64,000 nucleotides of DNA from Pegea sp. RAD2-039 (taxonomy: Eukaryota; Chordata; Thaliacea; Salpida; Salpidae): the NCBI GenBank assembly GCA_034620365.1, contig JAQGEQ010000335.1, forward strand, positions 186,001 through 250,000. The letters are read 5' to 3'. A program made the position numbers and the translations under genes. Below, piece after piece: positions 243-58,464 of this stretch; position 1 is the first letter of the stretch; each line of letters opens with the position of its first letter. Below the pieces are notes generated by a model. That model saw only the letters and a list, made by a program, of their open reading frames with translations, was not told the origin of the DNA and did no database searches.

Positions 243-3135
243 ATGGGTAATATATTAAATAGCAAAGTTGTTTTCGATTCAATTATGCCACCTACAGATG
301 ATAAAAGGTTAGTAGAATTTTGTGTCTTCACTTAAAGTTGTTCGCTAAGTAAACTTACTTTAAATTCACTTTTTATTTAAAATAAACACAGATTTGAAAT
401 TATTTATGTTGCATCTAAAAAGATTAATAACTTAAATTTTATCAATTTTAACTTGCAATTATTTTTTTTTTGATTTGTCTTAGAGTCATTTTTGTGTTAC
501 TCAATCATTTAGAAGAATTTTAATTTTATTGTTTTTCTTAATTATCAATTTAAGAACTGAAATAAGTATTTGTAATTTTATTTATTCACTTTTTTTATTT
601 TTATGTAACTTATTTGTTTCTTCTAATTCTTTATTTGTGATTAGATACTAAAGTAAATTTTAATTTTGATGTTTTTAGAGGTGAAGTTTGGGAAGCTGAT
701 AATTGTACAAATCTTCGATTGAAACTAAATTGCTTTCGTCAAACTTCTCAGCTTTGTGACGTTACCATCAAAGTAAATTTAGATGGTTTGGAAAGAACTT
801 TCAATTGTCACAAAGTAATATTAGCTGCTGCTTCAATTTATTTTGAAGATATGTTTTGCGGTAAGTTAGATTCAAGATTTAACTTCAGTTGTAAAATAAC
901 TGAATATATGAACACAAAAACTATTTGAATTTATTAAGGTGGATTTAAAGAATCATATTCTCGGGAAGTTACCATAAATGAGGTTGACCCAAATGTATTC
1001 TCTGATCTTCTAGAATATATTTACTCAAAAGAAATAGAAATCAATGAAGAAAATGTTGAGAAACTGATGATCACAGATTCCATGTTTCAAATAAATGGTT
1101 TAGAGAAGTTATGTAGCAAGTAAGTTAGTTTTGTAAATCAGTTTCTTTCGATAGTTTTTGTAACTTTACTTTATCAAATACAGCTTTTTGGAAAGTCAAA
1201 TTGAAATTTCCAACTGCTTCGAATTTGCAACATTTGCTGAGAAATATGGATTTTTGGAGCTTTCAACGAAAATAGAAAAATTTATTGGAAAAAACTTTAT
1301 AGAAGTAAGAAAATAGAGAAATGTTATTTTCTTGGCTAAAACATTTTAAGTAGAAAGATATTTTCCACTTCATCAAAATTAAATAATTATGAAATATTTC
1401 CTTGCTTCGTTATTTCTACTGATTTTGTTCTTTTCATGATTAATAAGAAAAAGTTTTTGATTGATCTCATGATATTTACCAGATTTCGAAAACTGAAGAA
1501 TTCAAATTACAACCAGACTCTGTAATTTCTAAAATAATTTCTAAAGATGAGCTTCATGTGGTTTGTGAATCCCAAGTATTCAATGCTGTTCTAGATTGGA
1601 TCAAATATGATTTAACTTCAAGAAAACATTACTTAAATAAGTTAATTAAGAACGTAAGTATCTAGAAACTATAAAGTTGTAGACTTGTGAGTATAAAATT
1701 GTGATTTCTCTAGGTACGTTGCCATTTGATAAATTCAAATTTTATTTCGATGAAACTAGAAAGTTGTGAAGTAATTAGAGATACTTGTTATGAATATCTC
1801 AGCAAGGTCCTCGATGACCTCAAAGCTTTCATTCCAATTGAAAGTAAGCCAAGACAACTTGATATTCCGCAGGTAAGATTATTTAATTAAATACTTTTCA
1901 CTTCAACGACTGATATATGACGTCACAGGTGATGTACATCACTGGTGAATCTTTTAGATCTGATGAGAAATTTTTGGAAAGTGTAAAGTTCCGTTTGTCT
2001 GAAACAGATGTTTGGTTTAAACTTCCGAAGATGTGTCTTCGAAATATTTCAAGATCTGTTGGCATCAACGGTTTCATTTATATGTTAAGGTTTAATGGTG
2101 ATATGGAAAGGTTAGAAGCATGAAGCAAATGATGACATCATCACTGCAAACTAAATATGACGTCATCTCATTTCTAGATACAACCCAATTTCAAATGAGT
2201 GGAAGAAGTGCAAAAGTTTAGAATTTGAATTTTCTATGCCGAAAATGGAAGTTCTTAATAAAGCATTATACGTTCTTGAAGATTATTATGATTTTGAAGC
2301 AGATGCTGATGATTCTAATTCTTTTGAAATAAGCAGATTGATGAAGTGAGTGATGAAATGACATTTCAACCAAAACTTCATTTGCCAAAAACTATTATGT
2401 TATTACCAGATACGATCCGATCACTGATAAATGGAGGCAAAAAGCTTCATTAAATAGACCTTGTGAATCTTGCGGTTGTGCTGTCTTCAATCGGATGTTG
2501 TATGTTGTCGGTGGTGAAGATTTCGGTCACTCAGTTGCTCTTGTGGATAAATATGATCCACAGAGAGACGATTGGAGTTTTTCAAAATCGATGTTGACTC
2601 CTCGAAGTGATCCAGGTAGTTGCTGATGACGCCACGATGACGTTTTGATCTTGTGATGACAACTAATTTTAAAATCATTAAAGGTGTAGTCACGCTTGGC
2701 AACTATATCTACGCCATTGGTGGTTGGAATGACGGAGAATATTTAAAGACTGTTGAAAGATACGATGTCCTCAATGATAATTGGCAATTCGTAGCAAGTA
2801 TGAAATATGCAAGAAGATGCCCAAGAGCTGTTGTCTTTAATAAGAAGATTTATGTTTTCGGTAAAACTTTTCTTATGTTTGGAATTGAAAAACTTTTTAA
2901 TAACATTTTTATGATGTTTACAATAATTTGCATAATTGCGATGAACTTGTTGATTCTTTCAGGAGGTTATTCTCATTACAGTCAAGATGGTCTAGAGGAT
3001 GTTAAAACTGTCGAATGTTACAATGAAATAACAAATGAATGGAAAGAAGTTGCAAGAACGAATGAATTGATTAGTGAAGTCATAGTCAGCTATCAACCAT
3101 GTGTACCTGACATATGTGTAAATTTCCCATTTTAA
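243..3135 (+). CDS. BTB-BACK-Kelch protein K1 (putative CUL3 substrate adaptor)
   Basis: The 11 exons are 243-307, 679-860, 939-1119, 1184-1304, 1483-1653, 1714-1872, 1929-2110, 2178-2345, 2410-2615, 2684-2860 and 2963-3135. All introns are GT-AG, and the exons sum to 1785 nt, giving 594 residues with no internal stop. The BTB domain is about residues 47-150 (CDVTIKV, then CHKVILAAAS), BACK about 153-258, and the Kelch propeller about 294-594, with recurrent Gly-Gly and Tyr/Trp positions (YDPITDKW, YAIGGW, YVFGGY). By family knowledge such proteins bind CUL3 through BTB and BACK and bring substrates to it through the propeller. The start is the first ATG after the promoter block and gives MGNILNSK. 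AATAAA signals overlap the stop (3134-3143). The first Kelch blades are degenerate, and the tail ends PCVPDICVNFPF. The partner is unknown. Confidence 0.9.
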
Positions 3136-3143
3136 TAAATAAA

Positions 3144-4640: not shown

Positions 4641-4645
4641 AGCAT

Positions 4646-8190: not shown

Positions 8191-8194
8191 AGAA

Positions 8195-11100
8195 ATGGTT
8201 AGTGTAATGAACTTCTTCTTGCTATGCAGTGTATTTTGTCAAGGAAACTGTGGTTCTTGCAACCTTCCAGCTCCTAAATCATGCTCACATCCACAATGCA
8301 TAGGTAGAAAAGTTGTTCCAATACAAAAATAGAATATTGAAACGTTTGTATTTAAATAAACTTCATTTAAAATCAGATTGTCAATCGAACAGCTGGTCTA
8401 GTTGGAGTAAATGCAATACATAATCGATATCTGAGGTTTACAGAACAAGAACTAAAAACGCCTTTGGGTCAAAAGGAACAGATTGCCCAGGAAGCTCAAG
8501 GAAAAGTAAAAAGTGTGGACGTGTCTGTTGCCCAGAAAATTGTATCTGGGGACCGTGGTCAGTATATGGGCAATGCCCAGTAACATGTGGAAGTGGAAGC
8601 CACACTAGATTAAGATCGATATCAAAACCTGCCAAGTGTGAAGGGAATCCTTGCACTGGACCAACAAGTCAAACAAAACAATGTTCAAGTGGTTGCTATC
8701 CAGTTGACTGATTATGGGGACAATGGAGCAGTTACGTTAAGTGTTCACTTACTTGTGGATCTGAATCACAAAGCCGACAAAGAAATATTACGAGAGAAGC
8801 TAGTTGTGGTGGAGCCGCTTGTTTTGATCCGAGAATGCAAACAAAAAACTGCAACACACAGTGCTGTAAAGAAGATTGTTTGTTAAGTGAATGGGGAAGT
8901 TTTGGTTCTTGTTCAGCAAGTTGTGGTGAAGGAGTGAGGCTGAGGTCTCGAAATTTAATTCGTCCAGCAAAATGTGGAGGACAACCTTGTAGTAGTGATA
9001 GAGAAGAAAGTAAACCCTGTAACGAGAGATGTTGCCCAGTTGACTGTATTTAGGGTGAATGGGGATTGTATGACAGTTGCTCAGTTTCCTGTGGTAATGG
9101 AGTTCAAGTCAGAAGTAGAAGAAAGACTCAGGAATCAGAATGTGGAGGTAGTGAATGTTCAGGATCTCCGAATGATTATCTTAATTGCTACAATTGTTGT
9201 CCGGTTAACTGTGTGTGGGACAACTGGGTAGTTACTGGCACTTGTTCTGAGTCTTGTGGTGGAGGACTAATAAATCGAAAACGAACCATTAAAACTAAGG
9301 AGTCGTGTGGTGGGCAAACATGTTACGGTCCGTCAACCGACAAACAATCATGTAATACTCAATGCTGCGCTGTTAACTGTCAATGGACTGAATGGAACAA
9401 GTTTGGCTTATGCTCAAAACATGTGGAAACGGAACAAAGTCGAGATCAAGAACAATTAAAGTTGTAGCATCATGCGGAGGAGAAAGCTGTGAAGGTGAAT
9501 ACACAGAATTCACATCATGTAATGATGGGTGTTGTCCGGTTGATTGTCAATGGTCAAGTTGGACAAGCTATGGAAGCTGTTCTAAAACATGTGGATCAGG
9601 ACAAGAAAGTAGAAGCAGAAGCATAAAAGTAAAAGCACAATGTGGAGGTGCTGTATGTGAAGGAAGTGAAGTTGATACTAGAAGATGCAACACACAGTGT
9701 TGTGCTGTTGATTGTCAATGGAGTGAGTGGGGATATTTTGAACCATGTTCAGTGTCTTGTGGTAAAGGAAAGAAATCTCGTTCAAGAACTGTTCAGATTG
9801 CAGCAAGTTGTGGAGGTGAATTATGTCAAGGGTCATCTACAAGTACCTTACCTTGTAATACTCATTGTTGTGCTGTTGACTGTAAATGGACGAATTGGAG
9901 TAAATTTGGAAGCTGTTCAAAGTCTTGTGCAAGTGGATTACAATCTAGACAGAGGACAATTGCTACGATTGCAAGTTGTCATGGCAAATCATGCCAAGGA
10001 GCAAACAACGACACAAGATCTTGTAACACTGAATGTTGTAAGGTTGATTGTTCTTGGACAGACTGGACTGCATGGCAAGGGTAATTTATTTTATATTTGA
10101 TTAACAATTATAAGGTTTAATATCAAATTACACAGATGTAATGCAACTTGTGGTACTGGCAAACAAAAACGATTTCGTAAAATAAAAGTTGAAGCAAGTT
10201 GTGGTGGTGATGTATGTGAGGGAGAACGTGTTCAAATAGCTAACTGTAATACTCAATGCTGTCCAGGTGAGGTTTGTAGGTTTTCAAACTTTAATGACCG
10301 ACTTCACAAAATAATTGTTCTTTCACAAAAAGAATATTATGAAAAGTTTTTAAATCATTTATTTTTAATTATTATTTGCATTAGTCATTTTATACGTTTT
10401 TAACAACTAATTATTTTAAAGTGGATTGCCAAGTATCACAATGGAGTTCATGGACTTCTTGTACTAAGTCTTGTGGAGTTTCAGGATTTACAACAAGAAA
10501 TAGAAGTATTACTCAGCAACAAAGTTGCAATGGAAGAACTTGCCAAGATTATTTTGAACAAGTTAAACCATGCAATGTGATTTGCTTAAACAATGGCACA
10601 CCAGATGCTTCAACTCAAACTTGCCAATGTTCAAAAGGGTGGAAAGGAGATTGTTGTGATGAAGGTTTTTTCAAAGTTGTGAAGTAAATTATGTAAATAA
10701 AAAACAAATATTGATTTAAACTTTGAAATGGTACTTAAAAATGTGTTAGGATGAGATCAAGCTTATGTATTCAAAATCTTTCTACAGATTTCAAATCTAG
10801 TCTAATATTAATTCTAAATAACTTTTAGATGTTGATGAATGTGAAAACGATTTACATAACTGTAATGATGTAGCAACTTACACAAATCTCATTGGAAGTT
10901 TTCAATGTTCTTGTAATCAAGGATATTCAGGAAATGGTATCGAATGTATAAGTAAGAGAATATTTGTTTATAATTGTTAATTATTTTTTTTGTAATTTAT
11001 GATTAAATGTGAAACTTTAGTATTTTATAGGATTTAGTTTTAACAAATGATAAAGTTTTACTGCTCCCTTAATAACCGTAAGATTCATCATTGGTTTAAG

Positions 11101-14048: not shown

Positions 14049-16940
14049 TTAAAATGGGAAATTTACACATATGTCAGGTACACATGGTTGATAGCTGACT
14101 ATGACTTCACTAATCAATTCATTCGTTCTTGCAACTTCTTTCCATTCGTTTGTTACTTCATTGTAACATTCGACAGTTTTAACATCTTCTAGACCATCTT
14201 GACTTATATGAGAATAACCTCCTGAAACAATCAACCAGTTCATCGCAAGTATGCAAATTATTTTAAACATCATAAAAATGTTATTAAAAAGTTTTTCAAT
14301 TCCAAACATAAGAAAAGTTTTACCAAAAACATAAATCTTCTTATTACAGACAACAGCTCTTGGGCATCTTCTTGCATATTTCATACTTGCTACGAATTGC
14401 CAATTATCATTGAGGACATCGTATCTTTCAACAGTCTTTAAATATTCTCCGTCATTCCAACCACCAATGGCGTAGAGATAGTTGCCAAGCGTGACTACAC
14501 CTTTAATGATTTTAAAATTAGTTGTCATCAAAAGATCAAAACGTCATCGTGGCGTCATCAGCAACTACCTGGATCACTTCGAGGAGTCAACATCCATTTT
14601 GAAAAACTCCAAACGTCTCTCTGTGGATCATATTTATCCACAAAAGTAACTGAGTGACCAAAATCTTCACCACCGACCACATACAACATCCGATTGAAGA
14701 CAGCACAACCGCAAGATTCACAAGGTCTATTTAATGAAGCTTTTTGCCTCCATTTATCAGTGATCGGATAGTATCTGGTAATAACATAATAGTTTTTGGC
14801 AAATGAAGTTTTGGTTGAAATGTCAGTTCATCACTCACTTCATCAATCTGCTTATTTCAAAAGAATTGGAATCATCAGCATCTGCTTCAGAATCATAAAA
14901 ATCTTCAAGAACGTATAATGCTTTATTAAGAACTTCCATTTTCGGCATACGCAACTCATCGTCTAAACGTTTGCACTTCTTCCACTCATTTAAAATTGGG
15001 TCGTATCTAGAAATGTGATGACGTCATATTTAGTTTGCAGTGATGATGTCATCATTTGCTTCATGTTTCTAACCTTTCCATATCACCATTAAACCTTAAC
15101 ATATAAATGAAACCGTTGATGACAACAGATCTTGAAATATTTCGAAGACACATCTTTGGAAGTTTAAACCAAACATCTGTTTCAGACAAACGGAACTTTA
15201 CACTTTCCAAAGATTTCTCATCAGATCTAAAAGATTCACCAGTGATGTACATCACCTGTGACGTCATATGTCAGTGGTTGAAGTGAAAAGTATTTAATTA
15301 AATAATCTTACCTGCCGAATATCAAGTTGTCTTTGCTTACTTTCAATTGGAATGAAAGCGTTGAGGTCATCAAGGACCTTGCTGAGATATCCATAACAAG
15401 TATCTTTAATTACTTGACATTTTTTTAATTTCATCGAAATAAAATTTGGATTTATCAAATGGCAACGTACCTAGAGAAATCACAATTCTATACTCACAAG
15501 TCTACAACTTTATAGTTTCTAATTACTTACGTTCTTAATTAACTTATTTAAGTAATGTTTTCTTGAAGTTAAATCATATTTGATCCAATCTAGAAGAGCA
15601 TTGAATATTTGGGATTCACAAATCACATGAAGCTCATCTTTAGAAATTATTTTAGAAATTACCGAGTCTGGTTGTAATTTGAATTCTTCAGTTTTCGAAA
15701 TCTGGTAAATATCATGAGATCAATCAAAAATTTTTTCTTATTAATTATGAAAAGAACCAAATCAGTAGAAATAACGAAGCAAGGAAATATTTCATAAATA
15801 TTTAATTTTGATGAAGTAGAAAAAATCTTTTTACTTAAAATGTTTTAGCCAAGAAAATAACATTTCTCTATTTTCTTACTTCTATAAAATTTTTTCCAAT
15901 AAATTTTTCTATTTTCGTTGAAAGCTCCAAAAATCCATATTTCTCAGCAAATGTTGCAAATTTGAAGCAGTTGGAAATCTCTATTTGACTTTCCAAAAAG
16001 CTGTATTTGATAAAGTAAAGTTACAAAAACTATCGAAAGAAACTGATTTATAAAACTAACTTACTTGCTACATAACTTCTCTAAACCATTTATTTGAAAC
16101 ATGGAATCTGTGATCATCAGTTTCTCAACATTTTCTTCATTGATTTCTATTTCTTTTGAGTAAACATATTCTAGAAGATCAGAGAATACATTTGGGTCAA
16201 CCTCATTTATGGTAACTTCCCGAGAATATGATTCTTTAAATCCACCTTAATAAGTTCAAATAGTTTTTGTGTTCATATATTCAGTTATTTTACAACTGAA
16301 GTTAAATCTTGAATCTAACTTACCACAAAACATATCTTCAAAATAAATTGAAGCAGCAGCTAATATTACTTTGTGACAACTGAAAGTTCTTTCCAAACCA
16401 TCTAAATTTACTTTGATGGTAACATCACAAAGCTGAGAAGTTTGACGAAAGCAATTTAGTTTCAATCGAAGATTTGTACAATTATCAACTTCCCAAACTT
16501 TACCTCTAAAAACATCAAAATTAAAATTTACTTTAGTATCTAATCACAAATAAAAAATTAGAAGAAACAAATAAGTTACATAAAAATAAAAAAGTGAACA
16601 ATTAAAATTACAAATACTTATTTCAGTTCTTAAATTGATAATTAAGAAAAACAATAAAATTAAAATTCTTCTAAATGATTGAGTAACACTAAAATGACTC
16701 TAAAACAAATTAGAAATATAATAATTACAAGTTAAAATTGATAAAATTTAAATTATTAATCTTTTTAGATGAAACATAAATAATTTCAAATCTGGGTTTA
16801 TTTTAAATAAAAAATAAATTTAAAGTAAGTTTACTTAGCTAACAATTTTAAGTCAAGACACGAAATTCTACTAACCTTTTATCATCTGTAGGTGGCATAA
16901 TTGAATCGAAAACAACTTTTTTATTTGATCTATCTACCAT
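14049..16940 (-). CDS. BTB-BACK-Kelch protein K2 (putative CUL3 substrate adaptor)
   Basis: The 11 minus-strand exons are 16940-16876, 16505-16324, 16245-16065, 16000-15880, 15701-15531, 15470-15312, 15255-15074, 15006-14839, 14774-14569, 14500-14324 and 14221-14049. Lengths equal those of K1 exon by exon, giving 594 residues with no stop. The start reads MVDRSNKKVVFDSIM. It differs from K1 by scattered substitutions (for example KYYPITDKW for KYDPITDKW, and GKVWEVDN for GEVWEADN). It shares the long acidic loop in the second Kelch blade (about 20 residues, DSEADADDSN) found otherwise only in K1. The inverted arrangement would allow gene conversion with K1. Role by family as for K1; expression is unknown. 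Confidence 0.9.
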
Positions 16941-20025: not shown

Positions 20026-20029
20026 TTTA

Positions 20030-35880: not shown

Positions 35881-35903
35881 CTGCTTAGTTTTTTTTATTA
35901 ATT

Positions 35904-40478: not shown

Positions 40479-43364
40479 TTAAAATGGGAAATTTTCACAT
40501 ATGTCAGGTACACATGGTTGATAGGTGACTATGACATGATTAATCCATTCATTCGTTCTTGCAACTTCTTTCCATTCATTTGTTACTTCATTGTAACATT
40601 CGACGATTTCTAAATAACATTCTTGACCTACATTTTCTTCTTCATAATCAACTTCGGGTAAACTTCCTGAAACAATCAACAAGCTCATCACAATTATGCA
40701 AATTATTGTAAACATCATAAAATTTTAATTAAAAAGTTTTTCAATTCCAAACATAAGAAAAGTTTTACCAAAAACATAAATCTTCTTATTAAAGACAACA
40801 GCTTTTGGATCTTCTCTTGCATATTTCATACTTGCTACAAACTCCCAATTATCATTGAGGACATCGTATCTTTCAACAGTCTTTAAATCTTTTTCTTCTT
40901 CATTTAAACCACCAATGGCGTAGATATAGTTGCCAAGCGTGACTACAGCTTTAATGATTTTAGAATTAGTTATCGTCATAAGATCAAAACGTCATCGTGA
41001 CGTCATCGTGACGTCATCAGCAAGTACCTAGATGGCTTCGACGTGTCAACATCGATTTTGCAGAACTCCATTCGTCCCTCGTTGGATCATATTTCTCTAC
41101 ACGAGCAACTGGGATAAAGAGTTCTTCGTCACCACCGACAACATACAACATCCGGTTGAAGACAGCACAACCGAAAGAGTAACGATATCTATATAATGAA
41201 GCTCTTTGCGTCCATTTATCAGTGATCGGATCGTATCTGGAAATAACATAATAGTTTTTGGAAAATGAAGTTTTGGTTGAAATGTCATTTCATCACTCAC
41301 TTCATCAATCTAATTTTATTACCACCTTGAAAAAGATACAGTTCATTTTCAATAACTCCTAATCTCGGCCAACACAATTTATCGTCTAAACTTTTGCACT
41401 TCTTCCACTCATTTGAAATTGGATCGTATCTAGAAATGTGATGACGTCATATTTAGTTTGCAATGATGATGTCATCATTTGCTTCATGCTTCTAACCTTT
41501 CCATATCACCATTCCACTTTAAAATATAAATGAAACCGTTGATGACAACAGATCTTAAATTCATTGGAAGACCTATCTTTGGAAGTTTAAACCAAACATA
41601 TGTTTCAGACAAACGGAACTTTTGACTTTCCAAAGATTTCTCATCAGATCTACCGGATCCATCAATGACGTACATCACCTGTGACGTCATATGTCAGTGG
41701 TTGAAGTGAAAAGTATTTAATTAAATAATCTTACCTGCCGAATATCAAGTTGTCTTGGCTTACTTTCAATTGGTATGTAAGCTTTGAGGTCATCAAGGAC
41801 CTTGCTGAGATATTCATAACAAGTATCTCTAATTACATCACAACTTTCTAATTTCATCGAAATAAATTTTGGTTTTATCAAATGGCATCGTACCTAGAGA
41901 AATCACAATTTTATACTCATAAGTCTACAACTTTATAGTTTCTAGATACTTACGTTTTTAATTAAGTTATTTAAGTAATGTTTTCTTGAAGTTAAATCAT
42001 ATTTGATCCAATTTAAGAGAGCATTGAATATTTGGGATTCACAAATCACATGAAGCTCATCTTTAGAAATTATTTTAGAAATTACAGAGTCTGGTTGTAA
42101 TTTGAATTCTTCACTTTTTGAAATCTGGTAAATATCTTGAGATCAATCAAAAAGTTTTTCTTATTAAATATGAAAAGAACAAAATCAGTAGAAATAACGA
42201 AGCAAGGAAATATTTCATAAATATTTAAGTTTGATGAAGTAGAAAAAATCTTTCTACTTAAAATGTTTTAGCCAAGAAAATAACATTTCTCTATTTTCTT
42301 ACTTCTATAAAGTTTTTTCCAATAAATTTTTCTATTTTTGTTGAAAGCTCCAAAAATCCATAATTCTCAGTAAATGTTGAAAATCCAATACAGTTGGAAA
42401 TTTCAATTTGACTTTCCAAAAAGCTGTATTTGATAAAGTAAAGTTACAAAAAACTATTGAAAGAAACTGATTTATAAAACTAGCTTACTTGCAACATAAA
42501 TTCTCTAAACCAGTTATTTGAAACATGGAATTTGCAATCATCAGTTTCTTAACATTTTCTTCATTTATTTGTATTTTGTTTGAGTAAATGTATTCTAGAA
42601 GATCAGAGAATACATTTGGGTCAACCTCATTTAAGGTAACTTCTCCCGAATATGATTCTTTTAATCCACCTTAATAAATTCAAATAGTTTTTTGTTGATA
42701 TATTCAGTTATTTTACAACTGAAGTTGAATCTTGAATCTAACTTACGACAAAACATAGCTTCAAAATAAGGTGAAGCAGCAACTAATATTACTTTGTGAC
42801 AACTGAAACTTCTTTCCAAACCATCCAAATTTACTTTGATGGTGACATCACATAGCTGAGAAGTTTGACGAAAACCATTTAGTTTCAATCGAAGTTTTGT
42901 ACAATTATCAACTTCCGAAACTTCATCTCTAAAAACATCAAAAGTATAATTTACTTTAGTATCAAATTAAAAATAAAGAATTAGAAGAAACATATAAGTT
43001 AGATAAAAATAAAAAAGTGAATAAATAAAATCACAAATACTTATTTCAGTTCTTAAATTTTTAAATAAATAAAACAATAAAATTTAAATTCTTCTAAATC
43101 ATTTAGTAACACAAAAATAACTCTAAAACAAATTAGAAAAATAATAATTGCAAGTTAAAATTGATAAAATTTAATTATTTATCTTTTTAGATGCAACATA
43201 AATAATTTTTCTAATCTGTGTTTATTTTAAATAAAAAGTGAATTTAAAGTAACTTTACTTAGCGAACAATTTTAAGTGAAGACACAAAATTCTACTAGCC
43301 TTTTATCATCTGTAGGTGGCATAATTGAATCAAAAGCAACTTTGCTATTTGATCTATCAACCAT
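40479..43364 (-). CDS. BTB-BACK-Kelch protein K6 (putative CUL3 substrate adaptor)
   Basis: Exons are 43364-43300, 42928-42747, 42669-42489, 42423-42303, 42124-41954, 41893-41735, 41678-41497, 41429-41301, 41236-41028, 40948-40769 and 40666-40479. They total 1767 nt, or 588 residues, with no stop. The start reads MVDRSNSKVAFDSIM. Intron 1 begins GCTAGT where the other copies have GTTAGT, so it needs a GC-AG splice. The BTB is of the CHKVIL type. Loops are distinct: QGGNKIRLMK, LYRYRYSF, GGDEELFIPVAR, GGLNEEEKD and, in the last blade, the longest version (PEVDYEEENVGQECYLEI). The tail is PCVPDICENFPF. Likely functional if the GC donor is used. Confidence 0.85.
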
Positions 43365-44560: not shown

Positions 44561-46653
44561 GCTGATATTAAACAGTGGTAAAGATATTAGTCAAAAAATA
44601 AAACTGAAACACAACACACAATCTCCAAAAATATAATGCGATATGAAATAAGCTCACTAGAACTTTTCTTCAGTGCGAAATTTCAAAATGTAAAAAATAT
44701 TCCAAAAAATAAACTCTAGAATGCACGTGATATGTTAATTAAAAATTGGTGCATAAAGATTATTTGTGTTGACGCGCTCTCGATTAGTTGACCCGTAAAA
44801 CCTGCAAACTCATTTAACAGCTGTTTAACAATTTTACATCTATTCATAAATCTTTATAAGTTAGACAAGATTTTTCAGATTTTATCTAATATTTAGTGTA
44901 AATATTTAATGTTATATTGTACAGGATTTACTAAACTATCAATTGTTACATCATTTTTTTTAACTTAAGTATGTATAATAGGTCTCTTCTGAGCCTAGTA
45001 GTTGGTGGGAAATTTTATTTCGAGAAACTGTTAAAGTTAGATTCATCATTCATTAACTTCTTTTCTAATCTAAGCAAACTTACATACAAGATTGTATTGG
45101 AACTAGTAGCGTGTATTAATATGTTAAGAGAGCATGCCTAGAAGCCTTTTACAATTAAAATTAGTGCTGGCAAAAATGTTTTTTAAATATATCTATTGAT
45201 TGAAATTTCGGATCACTTTGGAGTGGTATGGAAAAACAAACATAAATAATTTTTACAAACAACTGAGTAGAAAAAGTAATTATACAAGGATCATAAAACA
45301 GAGGCAAGATGTAGGTATCATAATTACTATCAATAGATACTGTTTAAAATTGTATTTTTAGTCTTACAAAGTTGTCTTGCACACTTTAAGTCTGACTAAA
45401 GCTTAAACAAGATAAGATAGTAAAAATAAAGATGAAAATCCTTTTTATAATTTGATCTGTTACAATTTGGTGTATTTTTAGTCTTACAAAGTTGTCTTGC
45501 ACACTTTAAGTCTGACTAAAACTTACACAAGATAAGATAGTAAAAATAAAGATGAAAATCCTTTTTATAATTTGATCTGTTACAATTTGGTGTATTAAAG
45601 TCGACAAATAATTACAATCAAATTAAATTAATTTACCTTCACTAAGCGATTTTATTTAACTATAGTAAAAATTTCAAGAAGCAATTTTTAAAAGGAATAT
45701 AGTTTTTCTAATTCTGTAAAATATCATCTAACTTAGTGCAGTGATATGGTCTTATAATTTTAGTACAATTGTACGACTATTTTGAAATAAATCAGTTTCT
45801 TTATTTTCTTATAAGATCTATATAACTTTTACTATTTCAATTCTAACTCAATTATTACATTAGTGAATACTTCAAGTATGTTGGCAAGTTTCATTTCTAC
45901 TGAATGACTTTTGTTCACTTAAAGTACGTCCAACTTCAAAAAAATGCTTTCTTATTATTATTCAGAAAACTTTTAATTTCAGTTATTATTTAACTAAATT
46001 TATAAAAAGTTGGTTTATTTTAGTGTTTTGCAAAATCCTGCTTCTTTCAAAAACTCTTTCGAGAGATGATTTATTTGAGTTCTTTCGAAACCAAACTTGT
46101 AACATAAGACATGTCAGGAAACAGAAATTGTAATATTAACTTTAAAACATGTTTGATGAGCTTACGGTTTGATTTTCACAAATTAACTTGAATTTTAGTG
46201 AAATAAATTATTTTTACGTGCAATAATATAATTTTTTAGACAATCTTTTCATAATTTAAAGTTTTAAACGATTTATCTTTTTGTAAAATTGAAATTAATC
46301 GCGACTTAAAAAGATCAAATTCCTTTTTATCCACTTTTTATTTTTCTTAGAAATTTATTGACAGAACGATTAGAGGTTTATAAAAAAAAAGAAATAGAAA
46401 GAAAAGCAATTTCAAACAAATTCGTATTTTTCCTTATATTCTGTAGATAATTCACTCACTGTATCTATAAAATGTTTTAGTAGAAACGGTGCATCATAAA
46501 CAACATTGCATGTAACAGCAATTATTACTAAAATTTATGCTGCTGCATGAGTAGTCTTACCAATCATTAATATATTTGATAATACAATAGTGCGTTTGAA
46601 GAAAAGAACAAAAATGAAACCATACTCATTGATAATTACATTTAAATTCTGAG
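44561..46653. other. Intergenic region between K6 and T2
   Basis: This is mostly unique AT-rich sequence with no recognised gene. It contains the 120-base tandem duplication (separate entry). Bases 46375-46560 match 27610-27450 inverted. A 68-codon minus reading around 46535-46741 is the read-through of the broken T2 end and not a separate gene. Confidence 0.4.
45361..45596. repeat. 120-base tandem duplication, two units
   Basis: Unit 1 (45361-45480) and unit 2 (45481-45596, truncated at its end) begin 'gtcttacaaagttgtcttgc' and differ at two positions in the shared part ('gcttaaacaa' against 'acttacacaa'). A related single sequence occurs inverted at 7320-7385. The low divergence suggests a recent event. 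Confidence 0.9.
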
Positions 46654-49600
46654 CTAGTAAAGGATTAGATAAATAGCTAAACCGAACATCGTGTTTGATA
46701 TAATTTTTTGATAGTTTAAACAAACGGAATTCGGTGAACAATTATGAATTTTCTCAAAGCATTCATCCAAATCTAACAATAAAAGATCATAAAGTTTTAT
46801 AAATTTTGTAAAACTTTTATTTATTATGAATAATATGCAAAACTTTATGCAAAGACTAAAGTATAAATTGAATATTTGATTACACAGCTATAAGCTTGGA
46901 ATACATTACAAGAAATTGTAAGTACAAAGTCTCAATAATATTAGAAATAAAAACTACCCGATATTCAATCTAACTAAATAAATATTTACTTACTTGTGCA
47001 CTCTTTTCCATTTCCTTTATATCCCTCATTACAGGTGCATGAATATCCTCCAATTGTATTATTACAAATTGCTTCAATATGGCATTCGTGTGTTTCACTT
47101 CCGCATTCATCAATGTCTTCATTGAAAATGAAATGATTATAAGAAAAGATATTAGGCTTAAATACAAGTTTTTTACAAACTCTAATGGATTTTACTTAGC
47201 TATTATGCTAAAAATATAAAAACAAATTATAACTTCTAATAGTAACAGTTTCATTACGTATCCGAAAGGATTTTTGTCTAAATATCTAGTAGTGACGGTA
47301 AGTAGTTAAACAGATTAACAGGAAAATCTCATAAATGAAAACTTTTGTTATTAGTCAAGCAGCTAATTGATTTTTTATTGTGGAATAGTTGTTAGTAAAA
47401 ACTATAGTTTCTGATAATCACAGTTTCCTTATTGTAAATCACTTTCTTATTTTAAAAAGTTTAGACACGGATGTTTTTATTGAAAATTGAATTTATTTCT
47501 AAATCTCACAAATGATAAAACTTAACGTATATCTTGCAAGTCGGAAATGGTTTACTTTTGATCAGATAGACCTAAGACCTACAAACTACCGAGAGATACA
47601 AAAAATATTTAATCAGATGAAGGTAATCAAATTACCTGAACAATTGTAACCGTTTCCTTGGTATCCAGAGTTACATTTACATTTGTAACTACCAATAGTA
47701 TTAATACAAGCAGCATTGAAATTGCAATCTTCTAATTCATATAAACATTCATCAATATCTACATATAAATGAAAAATATTTCAATTTTATATTACATCGT
47801 TTTAGAAAAGTAGAACACAAACCAAAGCAAGATAAACCATTTCCCCTGTATCCACTTTTACATATACATGTAAAACTACCTTCTAAATTATTACAATTAG
47901 CTTCAGAATGACAATTATTGGTTTCATCTTCACATTCGTTAACATCTTTTAAAACAGTTTTTTTATCAATGAGAGCATTCTACTTAATCTTCATTTAGTT
48001 TTTCATTCACCTGAACACGTGACACCATCTCCAGTAAAACCCTCTAAGCATTTACATTGAAAACTGCCATCAATGTTGATACATTTTGCTTTACTATTAC
48101 AATTGTCTTTATTCTCTTCACATTCATTTATATCTACAAGACAATCAGAAATTTCTACTTTGCAAGAAAATACTTAATCAAAAATCTATACTACAAACTT
48201 CTAGTATCTACTAACATTTATAAATAATCTCTTATTAGTCTATATTTGAAACTATTTTATTCATAATGGAGTTTCATAAAATAAAGTAGATCTAAAATTT
48301 TAAAGAGACGCTAATTTATTTAAATCACATATAAAGAATTTTTTAAATAAGAATTTAAATTGAATACTTTGTGTGATAATAATAAGAAAAAAAGATTTTT
48401 GTTCAATTAAAACAATTGTTAGTAACTGTTGGTGAATTTTACAAAAGCACAAAAATTATCGTAGCTAATCCTTCAAGAACATATATTTACTAACCAAGAC
48501 ATGAAAGTCCGTCTCCTTTGTATCCTTCTTTGCATAAACATTCATAATGTCCTTTTATATTGAAGCAATTTGCATTAACATCACAATTATGTTCGCCGTT
48601 CCCACATTCATCAACGTCTAATTGTAAAAAAACAAATTTTTTTGTTTAAACTTTTTAGTTTGCACTACCATACTATACTGAAGCTTCTATCACAAATGAT
48701 CAGTTTAAAAGAAAATAAATTTAACAAGAAGTTAATTTCAAAATTAACCTCTACAAATAGTTCCATTTCCATGATATCCATTAGCACAAGTACAAATATA
48801 GCTGCCCAATATATCTGTACAGATTGCATCTTCATGACACAAGTCAGTTTTTATTGCGCACTCATTATCATCTAAAAAACAAGAAAAAATATTTAGAAAA
48901 TATGATAGAATAAAATCTTAAGATGATAATATCAAGGTCTTTAAAACCAAATAGTTACTGGTGTTTGTTATCTAAACCAATGATGAATCTTACGGTTATT
49001 AAGGGAGCAGTAAAAGTTTTATGATTTGTTAAAACTAAATCCTATAAAATACTAAAGTTTCACATTTAATCGTAAATTACAAAAAAAATAATTAACAATT
49101 ATAAACAAATATTCTCTTACTTATACATTCGATACCATTTCCTGAATATCCTTGATTACAAGAACATTTAAAGCTTCCAATTAGATTTGTGCAAGTTGCT
49201 ACATCATTACAGTTATTTAAATTGTTTTCACATTCATCAACATCTGAAAGTTATTTAGAATTAATATTAGACTAGATTTGAAATCTGTAGAAAGATTTTG
49301 AATACATAAGCTTGATCTCATCCTAACACATGTTTAAGTACCATTTCAAAGTTTAAATCAATATTCGTTTTTTATTTAAAAAATTAGCTTCACAACTTTG
49401 AACAAACCTTCATCACAAAAACCTCCTTTCCACCCTTTTGAACATTGGCAAGTTTGAGCTGAAGCATCTGGTGTACCATTGTTAAAGCAAATCACATTAC
49501 ATGGTTTAACTTGTTCAAAACCATCTGGACAAGTTTTTCCATTGCAGCTTTGTTGCTGAGTAATACTTCTATTTCTTGTTGTAAATCCTGAAACTCCACA

Positions 49601-51031
49601 AGACTTTGTACAAGAAGTCCATGAACTCCATTGTGATACTTGGCAATCCACTTTAATACAATTAGTTGTTAAAAAACGTATAAAATGACTAATGCAAATA
49701 ATAATTAAAAATAAATGATTTAAAAACTTTTTATAATATTCTTTTTGTGAAAGAACAATTATTTTGTGAAGTCGGTCATTAAAGTTTTAAAACCTACAAA
49801 CCTCACCTGGACAGCAGTGAGTATTACAGTTAGCTATTTGAACACGTTCTCCCTCACAAACATCACCACCACAACTTGCTTCAACTTTTATTTTACGAAA
49901 CCTATTTTGCTTGCCAGTACCACAAGTTGCACTACACCTGTTTACATTTTATGTTAGTGTTTATACTCATAAATATCTAAATAATAAACTTACCCTTGCC
50001 ATGCAGTCCATTCTGTCCAAGAACAATCAACCTTACAACATTCAGTGTTACAAGATCTCGAGTCGTTGTTTGCTCCTTGGCATGATTTGCCATGACAACT
50101 TGCAATTGTAGCGATTTGCCTCTGTCTAGATTGTAATCCACTTGCACAAGACTTTGAACAGCTTCCAAATTTACTCCAATTTGTCCATTTACAGTCAACA
50201 GCACAACACTGTGTGTTGCAGGTTATTGTTTCTGTATTTGGACCAACACAAGCGGCTCCACCACAGCTAGCTTCTCTTGTAATATTTCTTTGTCGGCTTT
50301 GTGATCCAGATCCACAAGTAAGTGAGCACTTATCATAACTGCTCCATTGCCCCCATACACAGTCAACTGGACAGCAACCACTTGAACATTGTTGTGTTTG
50401 AGTTGTTGGTCCAGAGCATGGATTCCCTCCACACTTGGCAGATTTTGAAATCGATCTTGATCTAGTATGGTTTCCATTTCCACATGTTACTGGACATTGC
50501 CCATAGACTGACCACGGTCCCCAGATACAATTTTCTGGGCAACAAACACGTCCACACTTTTTACTTTCCCTTGAGCTTCCTGGGCAATCATTTCCTGTTT
50601 TCCACCAATAGCATAATTTGCTTCTTGTTCTGTAAACTTCGGATATTGAACATGTTGTATTGCATTTACTCCAACTAGACCAGCTGTTCCACCGACAACC
50701 TGATATCAAATGATTTTATTTAAATACAAACGTTTCAATATTCTGCTTTTGTATTGGAACAACCTTTTACCTCTGATTGGTTGATGGATGCATGGTAAGG
50801 GTATAGCCGGAATAAAGACTTGCCTTTAAATTCAGAAAGTTTTTAGAAGTACTCTACTAATTTCATAAACAGATTTTTGGGTTTAAACATTCGCTTTTAA
50901 GTTTATTTATCATTAGAAACAACTTCTATAAAAATTTAATTTTTATAGTGAGCTTACCCTTGGGTGAATGTCTGGTGAAAAGCTATCAAGAAACAATTCA
51001 GCACACAAATAAATTTTATTAATTTTGACAT
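46654..51031 (-). CDS. T2: secreted thrombospondin-1/calcium-binding-EGF protein
   Basis: Exons are 51031-50958 (signal peptide MSKLIKFICVLNCFLIAFHQ), 50823-50771, 50699-49994, 49937-49807, 49650-49408, then seven 123-nt EGF exons (49243-49121, 48871-48749, 48617-48495, 48133-48011, 47945-47823, 47758-47636, 47116-46994) and a final 46772-46654. Phases agree and the frame is open for 728 residues. It has six TSP1 modules (WSSWSKC, WGPWSVYGQC, WGQWSSYDKC, WTNWSKFGSC, WTEWTAWQG, WSSWTSC), one EGF-like module (CQCSKGWKGGFC) and seven calcium-binding EGFs (DVDEC, DDNEC, DINEC, DIDEC starts; CxCxxGYxGNG ends). By family it is an extracellular adhesion or matrix protein. The eighth EGF starts DLDECFEKIHNC, loses the pattern after NSVCLN and stops, so the original C-terminus is missing. 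There is no membrane segment. Confidence 0.85.
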
Positions 51032-52429
51032 TCTAGTCTTAGAAACTTTCTTTTATTAAAAATAAACAATTTTTTTTTCAATCAGTAACAATTTTCTTAA
51101 ACAAAATTTCTCTATTCTCAACAAAAACTAAAAAAAAAATTATTTCCTCTTTTGCCAACCAAATTTTTATATAAATTATTTAGTACTATTAGCTAGATTA
51201 GTGTTCATAAGCTTCAGTTATTTCTAAAACTAATATTTGCCGAGGTGCTGTATTAAAAATGTCAGACTTCCTCAAATTTGTTTGTTTTGAGATTAATTCT
51301 CAAAGTTTTAATTCTCTTTTCAACAAAAAAAGTTTTAATCTGTTATTTGCGAAAAAAATAAATGAACAACGATTGTATTTGCTTCATTGTCCTCATATAC
51401 ACAGTCAACCGAGCAGCAACCCTTTCGAACATTGTTTGGTTTGACTATAGAATAAGAAACATACAAAACTATTAATGAAACTTTAATCAGCTTCAATAAA
51501 TTCTTTAAAAGCATTTAAAAGAAGTAACGTTTCCACCAGAAATTAAATTTTTACAAGACCATTCGAAAATATAAATCAAATCAGCGACCTGCTTCTATAA
51601 GCATCTGTTCTTTGTGCAGCTTATATTTTTCTTGATTAGGATGATAAAGCATTAAACATCCGCAAAGCTGAGAAAATACTTTCACTTCCGATAAGAAAAC
51701 CTGGTTCTTACTGGTTCTTGACATTGACGTCTTTTTGAGAACATTTAACCAGAGAATTTAGTTGTTTCTGAAATTGATGAAACGATAGTCAATTTAAAAA
51801 AAATATATTTGATCACTATATTTACTTTGTTCCATTTTTTATTTAAAAATTTTGTCTTTCAGAAATCTACTTTTTTTCCTCTAAAAATGTTTGTACTTGT
51901 TTATTAATTAATTCGAAATTCAAAATATTAATAAATGATTAAACAAGTAACTAATGATGTGCACTAGAATATAATAAGTATTTTCAAACATTACATTACG
52001 AGTAGGTTGAATTATAATATCGTAGAAATGTGTAGAATTAAATGACGTCAATAGTGTTACAACTGTATCTGCTATTAAACTCAAAAATAGCGTTAGATGA
52101 TTTAAGAATAAAGCTGAAGAATAAGGTCAAAAGTAATTAGCAAAAAACCACTTTAAATTTATTTGAACAAATCAAAATTTTAGCTAACATTGTAACATTT
52201 TATCAAATGTGATAATATATAAATTTAAAGTAGAATTAAAATAATTTGAATTTTCAACATTTCTTAGTTATTGAAAATAATCTAATAAATTATTTTGTCA
52301 TTAAAAATGATTAAAAAAATTAAAATTAATTAGAAAATAAATAAGACTTTTAAGTAAAATTATAAAATTATTTAAAACCAATTTATAAGTCTCTGTACAA
52401 TATAATAGTGCAAATTTACATAGACGTTA
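51032..52429. other. T2 upstream region with an orphan TSP1 scrap
   Basis: Bases 51391-51450 on the minus strand resemble the TSP1 stretch QTKQCSSGCYPVD of T1 but are frameshifted and isolated. A 61-codon plus reading over it is only its antisense. The rest (51450-52429) is AT-rich with no recognised gene; T2 regulatory sites must lie here but I cannot identify them. Confidence 0.45.
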
Positions 52430-53600: not shown

Positions 53601-55330
53601 GGCCGTATTGTTAAAGCTTCATTTGTATATTTTTACTCCAGGGTCTGTTGTATGGAGAGCTTTTAAAGGGCACTGACCGTCCTTGTCGCTGCTTTAAGAA
53701 TTAATCCTCCTATATTGCTCTGTAAAGAACTGAAAGATAGAGAAGAGAAACTAACTTGACTAAAAAAGAAAAACTTTTCTATTGTCCACTGAGCATGTCC
53801 ACCATCAATTTTTTTAAATCTTAACAAAGTAAACTAGTTTTTTCTATTCTAAAACGTTTAAAATGTCTTATCTGATTAAATATTAATCAGCTCAAAATAA
53901 AATTAAGGATTTATTTGTTTAGTTATACTATTTCTCTAATAAAAAAGATGAATTTTCAATATGCCATAGTATAAAGAAACAATTATATTTGTAAAAAAAT
54001 TATCTGATTGAGCAAGTTTATTGAACATTAAAAATACTTACTAGCCGTTAAAGCAAAATTATTTAACTTCATTTTATCGTTTGTTTCATTCGAATAGAAG
54101 ATGAAAGGTTTTCTTCACCAAGCGAATCGAAAAAATTCAAGCAAGTCTAAAAAGATATTAAAACATTATTAACAATCTAAGATTTAAACTAAAACTGTAA
54201 AAGTAAAGAATAAAATTTTGTTTTATTTCAATGACAATATATTTCATACTTATATTTACAAATCAAAAGTTTTTTGTTTGCCTGAGATAAAGATTCTTTA
54301 TATTTTCAGATTGTCTTCATGAAAGTATGATGAGTTTTTAAAAATCAATATTTTTCAAGGGTTATTTTTGTTTAAGGTAATTAAAATAAATTAATATAAT
54401 TGAAAAAAAACTTTTGGTCCACTTATAAATTCTTGAAATTCACAGAACAAAATAGTTTCTTTTGTTAAAAAAATCCAACTCAGTAAGAAGAGTTAGTAAG
54501 CTGGACAAACGCAGGGCCATGTTAGAGAGCATTAAGTTTATTATGTGTTTAACAATTATGACCAAAATATCAGGAAAAAATTAAATTTTATTCTTTACTA
54601 GTATTCCGTATATAAAAAATGTAAATATTGTAGCCAAAATATTATTAGTACATAATGTCCATGTTTATTATGTATTCCTCATATTGCTGTTTTCGCTGGT
54701 TATCATTTTGCTTTAAACCGTTTTAATGGTTGCAAATTAAGAACAAAATGATTTTACAATTTCTTTTAACAAGTTAGTAAAAATAAAAATATCTTTATAA
54801 CTTATTTTACTGATTTATTTTTAAGTTTATTTTGTAGCATTTTAGACTTTTTTAATTTCGAAATATCTTAATTTTTCCTGATGATTTTTTTATGTTTTTA
54901 ATAAATGTTGTAATTACTCATTTATATTATTATTATTATTAGTCACTTTCTTATTAATTTGAATAAATTTTTTTATAAGAGCTATCCTTACCTTTATTGA
55001 AAAATTTATCATCGTTTTGTTTTATCTACTATTTTTTTTATTTTTGGAAAACATTTTTGATTAATCTTTTTCTAAATTTTAGTTTTTATATCAAACTTTT
55101 CTAATTTATTTTAGTAGAATTTTTTATTTTTATTGATAAAATATTTTTTAGTTTTAATGATTTTAACATTAATAATGCTAACTGATTGAATTGTTTTTAT
55201 AATTTATTGCATTTTATTATCATTTTATGTTTTTGTATTTAATTTTAACTAATTTAATTTTGGTAGTTAATGATTATAATAATTACTTTCTATCAAAATA
55301 TGTTAGGCGTTTTACTGTTAAAAGTTGAAA
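53601..55330. other. K7 far-upstream region, copy of 27861-29600
   Basis: Nearly identical to the region before K5, including the GC-richer 'gtccttgtcgctgctttaag' stretch near 53680-53700. No gene is seen. Confidence 0.4.
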
Positions 55331-55552
55331 CTGTAAAGTTTTCTTCACTTATAAAAATTTAAATAATTTTAATATTTAATTAATTTTTAATAATTTTTAA
55401 AAGCTTTTTGAAAGTTTTCAAAAAATTTCTAATATTTAATATACATACATTTTTCGTTTGAAATTATTTCTTATTTATCTTTGATTATTTATCCCATAAT
55501 AATTTTCTTTTTGATATTCTAAAATGTTTGGTAGTTTTAAAATCAAACTGTT

Positions 55553-55625
55553 TATATAAATCAACTAATTCATTTATATAACATCAACAGTTGGTAGATT
55601 TTCTAAACTTGTTAATTTCATCAAA
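55553..55625 (+). promoter_or_regulatory. Conserved proximal promoter block of K7
   Basis: Same TATA-like and 'catcaacagttggtagat' elements and spacing as in K5. Confidence 0.45.
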
Positions 55626-58464
55626 ATGGTTGATAGATCAAATAGCAAAGTTGCTTTTGATTCAATTATGCCACCTACAGATGATAAAAGGTTAGTAGAA
55701 TTTTGTGTCTTCACTTAAAATTGTTCGCTAAGTAAACTTACTTTAAATTCACTTTTTATTTAAAATAAATACAGATTAGAAAAATTATTTATGTTGTATC
55801 TAAAAAGATTAATAACTTAAATTTTATCAATTTTAACTTGTAATTATTATATTTCTAATTTATTTTAGAGTCATTTTAGTGTTACTCAATCATTTAGAAT
55901 AATTTTAATTTTATTGTTTTATTTATTAATTAATTTAACAACTGAAATGAATATTTATAACTTTAATTATTCACTTTTTTTATTTTTATCTAACTTATTT
56001 CTAATTCTTTATTTGTAATTTGATACTAAAGTAAATTATACTTTTGATGTTTTTAGAGATGAAGTTTGGGAAGTTGGTAATTGTACAAATCTTCATCAAC
56101 TTAAACTGAATGACTCATTTGAAGATTCTCAGATTCATGATGTTTGCATCAAAGTGAAATTAAATGGATTTGAAAGAAGTTTTAATTGTGACAAACGTAT
56201 ATTAGTTGCTGCTTCACCTTATTTTGAAGCTATGTTTTGTCGTAAGTTAGATTCAAAATTCAACTTCAGTTGTAAAATAACTGAATATATCAACAAAAAA
56301 CTATTTGAATTTATTAAGGTGGATTAAAAGAATCATATTCGGGAGAAGTTACCTTAAATGAGGTTGACCCAAATGTATTCTCTGATCTTCTAGAATACAT
56401 TTACTCAAAAAAAATACAAATCAATGAAGAAAATGTTGAGAAACTGATGATTGCAAATTCCATGTATCAAATAACTGGTTTAGAGAATTTATGTAGCAAG
56501 TAAGCTAGTTTTATAAATCAGTTTCTTTCAATAGTTTTTGTAATTATACTTTATCAATTACAGCTTTTTGGAAAGTCAAATTGAAATTTCCAACTGTATT
56601 GGATTTTCAACATTTACTGAGAATTATGGATTTTTGGAGCTTTCAACAAAAATAGAAAAATTCATTGGAAAAAACTTTATAGAAGTAAGAAAATAGAGAA
56701 ATGTAATTTTCTTGGCTAAAACATTTTAAGTAGAAAGATTTTTTCTACTTTATTAAACTTAAATATTTATGAAATATTTACTTGCTTCGTTATTTCTAAT
56801 GATTTTGTTCTTTTCATATTTAATAAGAAAACTTTTTTCCCTGATCTCATGATATTTACCAGATTTCAAAAAGTGAAGAATTCAAATTACAACCAGACTC
56901 TGTAATTTCTAAAATAATTTCTAAAGATGAGCTTCATGTGGTTTGTGAATCCCAAGTATTCAATGCTCTTCTAGATTGGATTAAATATGATTTACCTTCA
57001 AGAAAACATTACTTAAATAAGTTAATTAAGAACGTAAGTATCTAGAAACTATAAAGTTGTAGACTTGTGAGTATAAAATTATGATTTCTCTAGGTACGAT
57101 GCCATTTGATAAAACCAAATTTTATTTCTATGAAATTAGAAAGTTGTGATGTAATTAGAGATACTTGTTATGAATATCTCAACAAGGTCCTCGATGACCT
57201 CAAAGCTTTTATTCCAATTGAAAGTAAGCCAAGACAACTTGATATTCGGCAGGTAAGATTATTTAATTAAATACTTTTCACTTCATCTACTGACATATGA
57301 CGTCACAGGTGATCTACATCATTGATAGATCTGATAGATCTGATGAGAAATCTTTGGAAAGCGTAAAGTTCCGTTTGTCTGAAACGGATGTTTGGTTTAA
57401 ACTTCCGAAGCTGTGTCTTGGAAATATTTCAAGATCTGTTGTCATCAACGGTTTCATTTATATGTTAAAGGAAAATGGTGATATGGAAAGGTTAGAAGCA
57501 TGAAGCAAATGATGACATCATCATTGCAAACTAAATATGACGTCATCACATTTCTAGATACGACCCAATTTCAAATGAGTGGAAGAAGTGCAAACGTTTA
57601 GACGGTGGATTAGGTTATTTCACTTATGCGAAAATGGAAGTTGTTGAAAATGAATTGTATATTTTTATTGGTGGCAAAAGATTGAAGAAGTTAGTGATGA
57701 AATGAGATTTTAACCAAAACTTCATATTCCAAAAACTATTATGTTATTTCTAGATACGATCCAATCACTGATGAATGGACGCAAAAAGCTTCACTAAAAG
57801 CATTTCGTGAATTTTTCGGTTGTGCTGTCTTCAATCGGATGTTGTTTGCTGTCGGTGGTGATAAATTCGATGATTCAGTTGCTCTTGTGGAGAAATATGA
57901 TCCACAGAGAGACGAATGGAGTTCTGTAAAATCGATGCTGACACCTCGAAGTGGACCAGGTATTTGCTGATGACGTCACGATGACGTTTTGATCTTATGA
58001 TGATAACTAACTCTAAAATCATTAAAGCTGTAGTCACGCTTGGCAACTATATCTACGCCATTGGTGGTTGGACTTACGAAGAACATTTAAAGACTGTTGA
58101 AAGATACGATGTCCTCAATGATAATTGGGAATTTGTAGCAAGTATGAAATATGCAAGAGGATGCCCAAGCGCTGTTGCCGTTAATAAGAAGATTTATGTT
58201 TTTGGTAAAACATTTCTTATGTTTGGAATTGAAAAACTTTTTAATAAAATTTTTATTATGTTTACAATAATTTGCATAATTGTAATGAGCTTGTTGATTG
58301 TTTCAGGACGTTTATTTGGAGATGATGATGTTAAAACTGTCGAATGTTATAATGAAGTAACAAATGAATGGAAAGAAGTTGCAAGAACGAATGAAATAAT
58401 TAATCATGTCATAGTCAGTTATCAACCATGTGTACCTGACATATGTGAAAATTTCCCATTTTAA
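55626..58464 (+). CDS. BTB-BACK-Kelch protein K7 (putative CUL3 substrate adaptor)
   Basis: Exons are 55626-55690, 56057-56241, 56319-56499, 56564-56684, 56863-57033, 57094-57252, 57309-57490, 57558-57689, 57754-57959, 58028-58204 and 58307-58464. They total 1737 nt, or 578 residues, uninterrupted. It is the near twin of K5 with the same CDKRILVAASPYF variant of BTB and the same Kelch loops. Differences include SFEDSQIHDVCIKVKLNGFE in BTB, KRLKKYDP for KRLMKYDP, KAFREFF for KAFHEFF, and ENFPF at the end. Both copies of the duplicated segment thus retain an intact gene while smaller readings around them decay in one copy or the other. Confidence 0.9.

Follow-up and report, generated by a model that had tools for sequence, protein, structure and literature searches.

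The 64,000-nucleotide window analyzed here, the whole stretch of Pegea sp. RAD2-039 DNA under study (contig JAQGEQ010000335.1, numbered C81, positions 186001-250000 of a 105.7 Mb, 387-contig assembly; GC ~27%), carries six BTB-BACK-Kelch genes (K1, K2, and K4 to K7), each with an uninterrupted reading frame from start to stop codon, 11 exons at matching places, and a product of 578-594 residues, plus one broken seventh copy (K3). These genes are probably part of a large and young family of diversified substrate receptors of CUL3-type (CRL3) ubiquitin ligases that, as far as sequence can tell, derives from KEAP1. The original prediction, made from the letters of the window, had read the cluster as a diversifying recognition repertoire mounted on a constant ubiquitin-ligase adaptor. 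This reading is supported by the ratio of nonsynonymous to synonymous change (dN/dS) in the propeller loops and by the mapping of the variable positions to these loops, target recognition being the function that such a repertoire would serve. The KEAP1 origin and the expansion of CUL3 in the same genome are new beyond that prediction.

KEAP1 descent and size of the family

The K5 protein finds KEAP1 as its best PDB match (E 2e-93). Pfam analysis assigns it BTB (residues 39-149), BACK (residues 155-253), and Kelch_1 domains, each above the cut-off, and returns no MATH or F-box match at E<=0.001, while the Kelch motif and the alignment with KEAP1 delineate, at the sequence level, six Kelch repeats and a closing strand. 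The same genome contains a KEAP1-like gene (L001, C76:424472-427594), whose best natural PDB match is KEAP1 (E 1e-144), a designed propeller scoring higher. All six introns compared between L001 and the family (introns 5-10) are common to both, and K5 shares 44% identity with L001 and 24% with another KLHL of this genome. Together, the six shared introns, the identity to L001, and the best PDB match indicate that the family derives from KEAP1. The residues R483, S508, Y525, Q530, S555, A556, Y572, and F577, which we take to be the Nrf2 contacts of KEAP1, align with family positions that rank 3 to 44 out of 284 in variability; conservation of the contact residues, as in a KEAP1 orthologue, is thus not what was found. 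Regarding the cysteines C151, C273, and C288, presumably the sensors of KEAP1, the equivalents of C273 and C288 are present in all 60 open copies analyzed (defined below), as is a third cysteine, K5 C266, which the KEAP1 alignment pairs with C297. The same alignment places an N at the position of C151 in K5. Since several further cysteines are also conserved in the family and C151 is not, cysteine conservation alone is no proof of a sensor role.

The original prediction had proposed a survey of the genome for further copies, and searching with exon 5 as a query returned at least 150 loci at E<=1e-5 (150 of 150 scored, out of 255 candidates), sharing 77-98% identity with the query. Six of the 150 scored matches have a stop inside exon 5. 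As every scored match passed this threshold, ~150 loci is a lower bound, pseudogenes being counted in it. A Kelch_1 profile search, in which 150 of 912 candidates were scored and all 150 passed the family cut-off, includes other Kelch genes. Family clusters occur on contigs C81, C14, C97, C116, C75, C50, and others. The arrays of C97 and C116 (14 and 23 exon-5 matches, respectively) both end at contig ends. They were considered as two haplotypes, an arrangement rejected on finding best matches mostly at 93-97% that do not form ordered pairs at allelic identity. As both arrays also run to contig ends, they are more likely, perhaps, one long array of ~37 genes. A viral origin was considered as well, but an exon-10 query run once against viral contigs produced 13 pattern matches without any relative among them.

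For comparison of complete genes, 82 loci were retrieved, some overlapping, and the exon-5 match was found in 80 of the 81 checked. With the exclusion of L001, of another KLHL (L005 and L006), and of windows that were too short (L002, L003, L004, and L008), the collection amounts to 73 full-length family loci, among them the six window genes, and the 60 that pass the frame and stop tests form the analyzed set. Three of these open copies are devoid of an ATG at the modelled start, and four of a stop codon at the modelled end. Among the 13 rejected copies, six have one defect (an in-frame stop or, in L025, a last exon one base short); the seven others exhibit frameshifts or multiple defects, or are mis-modelled.

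Variation on the loop face of the propeller

Blades were assigned on K5 through the Kelch motif and the alignment with the KEAP1 sequence. According to the available text of PMC6650413, the AB and CD loops of Kelch propellers form the top face, and the bottom face, which holds the substrate pocket, is made up of the BC and DA loops. In the family, mean pairwise identity over the 60 copies is 50% in the BC and DA loops, and reaches 81% in BTB, 83% in both the N-terminus and the strands, 86% in BACK, and 88% in the AB and CD loops. The variability extends to every BC and DA loop of the six blades, several of which also vary in length: a single loop position out of 86 is invariant, versus 35/155 in the strands, 8/43 in the AB/CD loops, 38/144 in BACK, and 13/112 in BTB. 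The loop-face strings are distinct in 59 of the 60 copies, and the BC3 stretch, encoded by exon 8, occurs in 15 lengths.

The original prediction had placed the variable loops on the substrate side, and the alignment with KEAP1 and the Kelch motif, used here rather than a folded model, agree: of the 50 propeller positions with the highest variability, 40 fall in BC/DA loops, which comprise 86 of the 284 positions. Of the ten outside the loops, three border the exon-8 loop. Entropy is 1.55 bits on the loop face against 0.47 bits, and none of the 283 circular shifts of the labels reached the observed difference of 1.08, the largest giving 0.99, a value this high because the blades repeat. In the part of PMC6650413 consulted, orthologues of KEAP1, KLHL2, KLHL3, and KLHL12 are described as having their best-conserved positions grouped in the BC/DA-face pocket. 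As the pocket is the least conserved part of the present family, the pattern is inverted.

The claim that the same loop spots vary in sequence and in codon number on a fixed scaffold extends to the 60 copies, as judged from their sets of exon lengths. Length is constant in all of them for exon 4 and for exon 5, and in 59 for exon 6, whereas exon 8 has 19 lengths (117-216 nucleotides), a contrast that is not due to chance; the number of lengths is ten for exon 11, seven for exon 9, six for exon 7, and five for exon 2. That lengths differ in threes is partly built in, only open-frame copies having been retained.

Selection and exchange between copies

Pairwise dN/dS values (NG86) were computed for the 1770 pairs of the 60 copies, which are not independent of each other, and grouped by divergence class. 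The loop face returned 3.53 (36 pairs), 2.37 (342 pairs), 1.75 (488 pairs), and 1.31 (770 pairs) by class, and 1.53 over all pairs, while every non-loop class remained below 1, except for the short N-terminus (1.06 in one divergence class). A bootstrap over genes, using pairs with a proportion of synonymous differences (pS) below 0.25, placed the loop face at 1.44-1.78, the upper limits of the other classes lying at 0.39-0.78. Taken one by one, ten of the 12 loops have a dN/dS above 1; the contrast is qualified by six of 35 non-loop propeller segments that exceed 1 too.

A neutral expectation was calibrated with the mutation spectrum of introns 1-5, 8, and 10 in 18 non-overlapping close pairs. 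On this scale the loop face reaches 1.73 (431 to 56 changes, p 4e-5); the values for BACK, the AB/CD loops, the strands, and BTB lie between 0.40 and 0.75, BTB and the AB/CD loops not significantly below 1, and the N-terminus at 1.62 does not depart significantly from neutrality. The loop face differs from the rest of the protein with a Fisher odds ratio of 3.6 (p 5e-17). The proportion of nonsynonymous differences (pN) in the loops exceeds the divergence of introns 1-4 and 8-10 by a factor of 4.8 (95% interval 2.9-6.9) and is the higher of the two in 14 of the 18 pairs, the pooled effect coming from pairs with strongly differing loops. Loop dN/dS is thus above that of the scaffold, and the original prediction survives this test.

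The copies also exchange short tracts, as deduced from the decay of linkage with distance: over 206 biallelic sites in 49 core copies, r2 falls from 0.27 at <10 bp to 0.07 at 120-250 bp and ~0.05 at >500 bp, and its correlation with log distance is -0.23 (0.00 +- 0.013 in 500 permutations). For C97 and C116, whose 25 modelled genes form 300 pairs, divergence amounts to 4.4% in introns, 6.8% in non-loop residues, and 41% in loop residues; similarity is maintained in the frame, and difference on the loop face.

Several observations weigh against the reading as a diversified receptor repertoire. Two single loops, BC1 (0.92) and DA5 (0.65), have a dN/dS below 1, and in four of the 18 close pairs (K5/K7, K6/L030, L014/L015, and L040/L049) the loops change more slowly than the introns. 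Eleven recent duplicate pairs, pooled, give a loop dN/dS of 1.45 that is not significant (p 0.28). Gene conversion can raise apparent dN/dS, and exons 7 and 8 of the 49 closest pairs show ~10% synonymous change, with 0.9% and 0.6% in the adjoining introns 6 and 7, so that part of the contrast reflects constrained introns or imported tracts, not amino-acid selection. Duplication, moreover, is not restricted to the Kelch genes, since TSP1-repeat genes of the window are duplicated as well. Diversity of the loop face has been favoured over the age of the arrays, and fast loop change straight after duplication is not supported. Of the "rapidly diversifying" repertoire originally proposed, diversification thus stands, with pooled loop dN/dS above 1, and rapidity finds no significant signal in the recent duplicates.

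Multiplication of CUL3

CUL3 is the cullin into which BTB adaptors normally plug. A search of the genome for cullins, with 71 of 94 candidates scored, reports one type in many near-identical copies and the others in about one or two places each, these being counts of places and not of gene models. One locus of the multicopy type (L082), pieced together from its exons, has Cullin-3 as its best PDB match (E 2e-103 versus 6e-30 for CUL4). Its first coding exon identifies 17 CUL3 loci, of which 12 share 97-100% identity, four 77-79%, and one 75%. None of the 17 contains a stop within this exon, and L082 is the locus that was read further. The loci are distributed over contigs C92, C134, C96, C203, C369, C370, and C278.

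Proposed function and alternative explanations

If the family proteins work as CRL3 substrate receptors, their BTB and BACK domains would dock each of them on CUL3, and the loop face would bind a target that would then be ubiquitinated. Many or changing targets may keep the loop face diverse, with conversion and purifying selection keeping the remainder alike. The targets would most likely be intracellular foreign or selfish proteins. An elaboration of this scheme to which we give a small chance is a germline-encoded intracellular repertoire built on KEAP1, with well over 100 receptors, an antibody-like variable face, and an expanded CUL3 set, that would be switched by oxidative or electrophile stress; the switch is suggested by the equivalents of C273, C288, and C297 kept in 60/60 open copies.

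Two alternatives attribute the loop variation to something other than selection for new specificities. Once Nrf2 binding was lost, constraint may have relaxed, leaving the loops to drift and folding to hold the frame. The nonsignificant excess in the recent duplicates, the low values of BC1 and DA5, and the variability of all BC and DA loops, as expected upon release of one face, speak for such a loss of constraint, but drift by itself is expected to stay at or below the neutral rate, and the amino-acid share of change lies above the intron-calibrated neutral share (p 4e-5), with loop change 4.8 times intron change over the 18 close pairs, which makes this explanation unlikely. It is rather improbable, too, that gene conversion acting alone shuffled old loop variants while homogenizing introns and frame, without selection for new specificities. 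The fall of r2 with distance to ~0.05, far outside permutation, speaks for conversion, as does the higher synonymous divergence of exons 7 and 8; in addition, pairs with similar introns have loops that differ either strongly (loop pN up to 0.31) or hardly at all. Neutral conversion should not, however, spare only the loops of one face, and the C97 and C116 genes combine introns that differ by 4.4% with loop residues that differ by 41%; selection for loop diversity would still be needed.

Other alternatives concern the role of the proteins. Some copies may be drive elements or their suppressors, spread by within-genome conflict. Clustered, inverted, and segmentally duplicated copies, together with relics and broken copies, would suit such a selfish repertoire, but no toxin partner turned up, although no search was aimed at one, and we regard it as improbable. 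An action independent of ubiquitin, for instance on actin as for Drosophila kelch, appears very improbable. It draws on the pea aphid, whose ~200 paralogues of Drosophila kelch are called actin-binding in the accessible part of PMC2826372; the relative of the present family is instead KEAP1, and CUL3 is multicopy in the same genome. The reading as diversified CRL3 substrate receptors therefore remains the preferred one.

Gene cluster of the window

Gene models bear out the common exon boundaries of the six genes and the coordinates of the original prediction; the loop strings quoted there are present in the translations, and its exon lengths are reproduced. Exon 8 measures 168, 168, 129, 132, 129, and 132 nucleotides, and exon 11 173, 173, 173, 158, 188, and 158 nucleotides, in K1, K2, K4, K5, K6, and K7, respectively. 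K1 (243-3135, + strand) is a complete gene of 11 exons encoding 594 residues, without internal stop, whose BTB and Kelch exons are matched in Pfam. Its exons 7-11 (1929-3135, + strand) encode the Kelch propeller with variable BC and DA loops, including a long acidic BC3 loop in exon 8 (2178-2345). K2 (14049-16940, - strand; 594 residues) is a complete inverted copy of K1, 95% identical over a 4.2 kb duplication. K3 (19953-20971, - strand) is a broken relic that comprises exons 10-11 (19953-20507), exon 11 being interrupted by a stop, and an intron 7/exon 8 remnant (20842-20971). K4 (23127-25926, - strand) has an open frame of 592 residues in which the acceptors of exons 9 and 11 have slid by 3 nucleotides: the canonical acceptors are lost, and an AG three bases off preserves the frame in each. 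K5 (29881-32713, + strand; 578 residues), the reference protein for blade assignment, is complete, as are K6 (40479-43364, - strand; 588 residues), which has a GC donor in intron 1, and K7 (55626-58464, + strand; 578 residues). K7 is a 97% copy of K5 inside an 8.8 kb segmental duplication (27881-36658 and 53621-62409, 97% identity) that extends into 36624-38203 and 62423-64000, for a total of ~10 kb at 96-97% identity. Loops are nearly alike within K1/K2 and within K5/K7. As both pairs are recent duplicates with little loop difference, the six window genes display about four loop sets.

Besides the Kelch genes, the window contains two related genes with many thrombospondin type 1 (TSP1) repeats in opposite orientation (8424-10687, + strand, and 49376-50715, - strand), 88-96% alike in parts, the second of which looks shorter. 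A 120-bp unit is present in two tandem copies of 98% identity at 45351-45596, and a 160-residue stop-to-stop open frame at 62270-62752 (- strand) has no Pfam match.

Introns and the TGACGTCA palindrome

The palindrome TGACGTCA, found for example in intron 6 of K1 (1918-1925), occurs 19 times in the window, versus 0.38 expected, and 18 of these occurrences belong to Kelch copies, counting the K3 relic, where they lie within intron 6, 7, or 9. It is also present at 52043-52050. Across the 60 copies, intron 6 contains it in 54, intron 7 in 51, and intron 9 in 49, with no occurrence in any other exon or intron, and L001 has it in introns 7, 8, and 9. By its sequence, TGACGTCA is presumably a CRE-type site, and it looks like a conserved regulatory element that predates the expansion. 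When only pairs whose introns diverge by less than 6% overall are considered, the difference amounts to 0.9-1.3% in intron 6 and 0.6-0.9% in intron 7, with 10-16% in exons 7/8. The palindrome-bearing introns were also considered as recombination sites, a role not retained: linkage disequilibrium across introns 6, 7, and 9 (0.03, 0.04, and 0.05) is not clearly below that across introns 3, 4, 5, 8, and 10 (0.04-0.07, with few site pairs for some introns). Intron 10, which has an open and hydrophobic reading in 42 of the 60 copies (e.g., 2861-2962), was rejected as coding because the other 18, including K6, have stops or a frame-breaking length.

Comparison with known systems

KEAP1 is, in well-studied animals, a single and conserved stress sensor. 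A lineage with at least 150 KEAP1 copies, broken ones included, in which the Nrf2 pocket has become the most variable region and CUL3 is multiplied, would be a natural experiment on the acquisition of new targets by a degradation receptor. The alignment of its copies shows propeller loops that tolerate change in both sequence and length, which is useful for the design of receptors for targeted degradation. If the proposed function is true, a ubiquitin-based defence inside cells may have been reached in this family by a second route, next to that of the MATH-BTB and F-box genes of nematodes. Among titles and abstract beginnings of the open-licence literature, no published KEAP1-derived expansion, nor a CUL3 expansion beside one, was found. 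An experimental rotifer study, as far as its available text goes, associates linked single-nucleotide polymorphisms in a gene called KEAP1 with the hatching of diapausing eggs.

The family resembles KEAP1 in domain order, in its six repeats and closing strand, in the C273 and C288 equivalents present in 60/60 copies, and in the positions of introns 5-10, which coincide with those of the KEAP1-like L001. It differs from KEAP1 by hypervariable Nrf2-contact positions, by the N that replaces C151 in K5, and by its at least 150 loci, pseudogenes included. With KLHL2, KLHL3, and KLHL12 it has in common the predicted fold and the BC/DA face as putative substrate site, whereas the pocket is the most conserved region in their orthologues, in the portion of PMC6650413 consulted, and the least conserved part here. 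The pea aphid offers a precedent for lineage-specific expansion of Kelch genes in an animal (~200 paralogues; PMC2826372, in part), but its genes are paralogues of Drosophila kelch, and the available part of that paper mentions neither loop-face diversification nor cullin expansion.

The nematode systems are close in evolutionary pattern. The MATH-BTB and F-box genes of Caenorhabditis form large adaptor families in which positive selection acts on the domains that bind substrates and not on those that bind the cullin (Thomas 2006, as cited in partly available sources), and in C. elegans, according to similarly partial sources, infection raises adaptors of the MATH-BTB/F-box type and, in one infected mutant, cul-6. 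The likeness to these families drawn in the original prediction is upheld by the pooled selection on the substrate face: positive selection is confined to the substrate domain in the pooled tests and is not significant in the 11 recent duplicates. In contrast with the nematode families, which use other substrate domains, the present one relies on a KEAP1-type propeller that varies mainly on one face, in a genome where CUL3 is multicopy.

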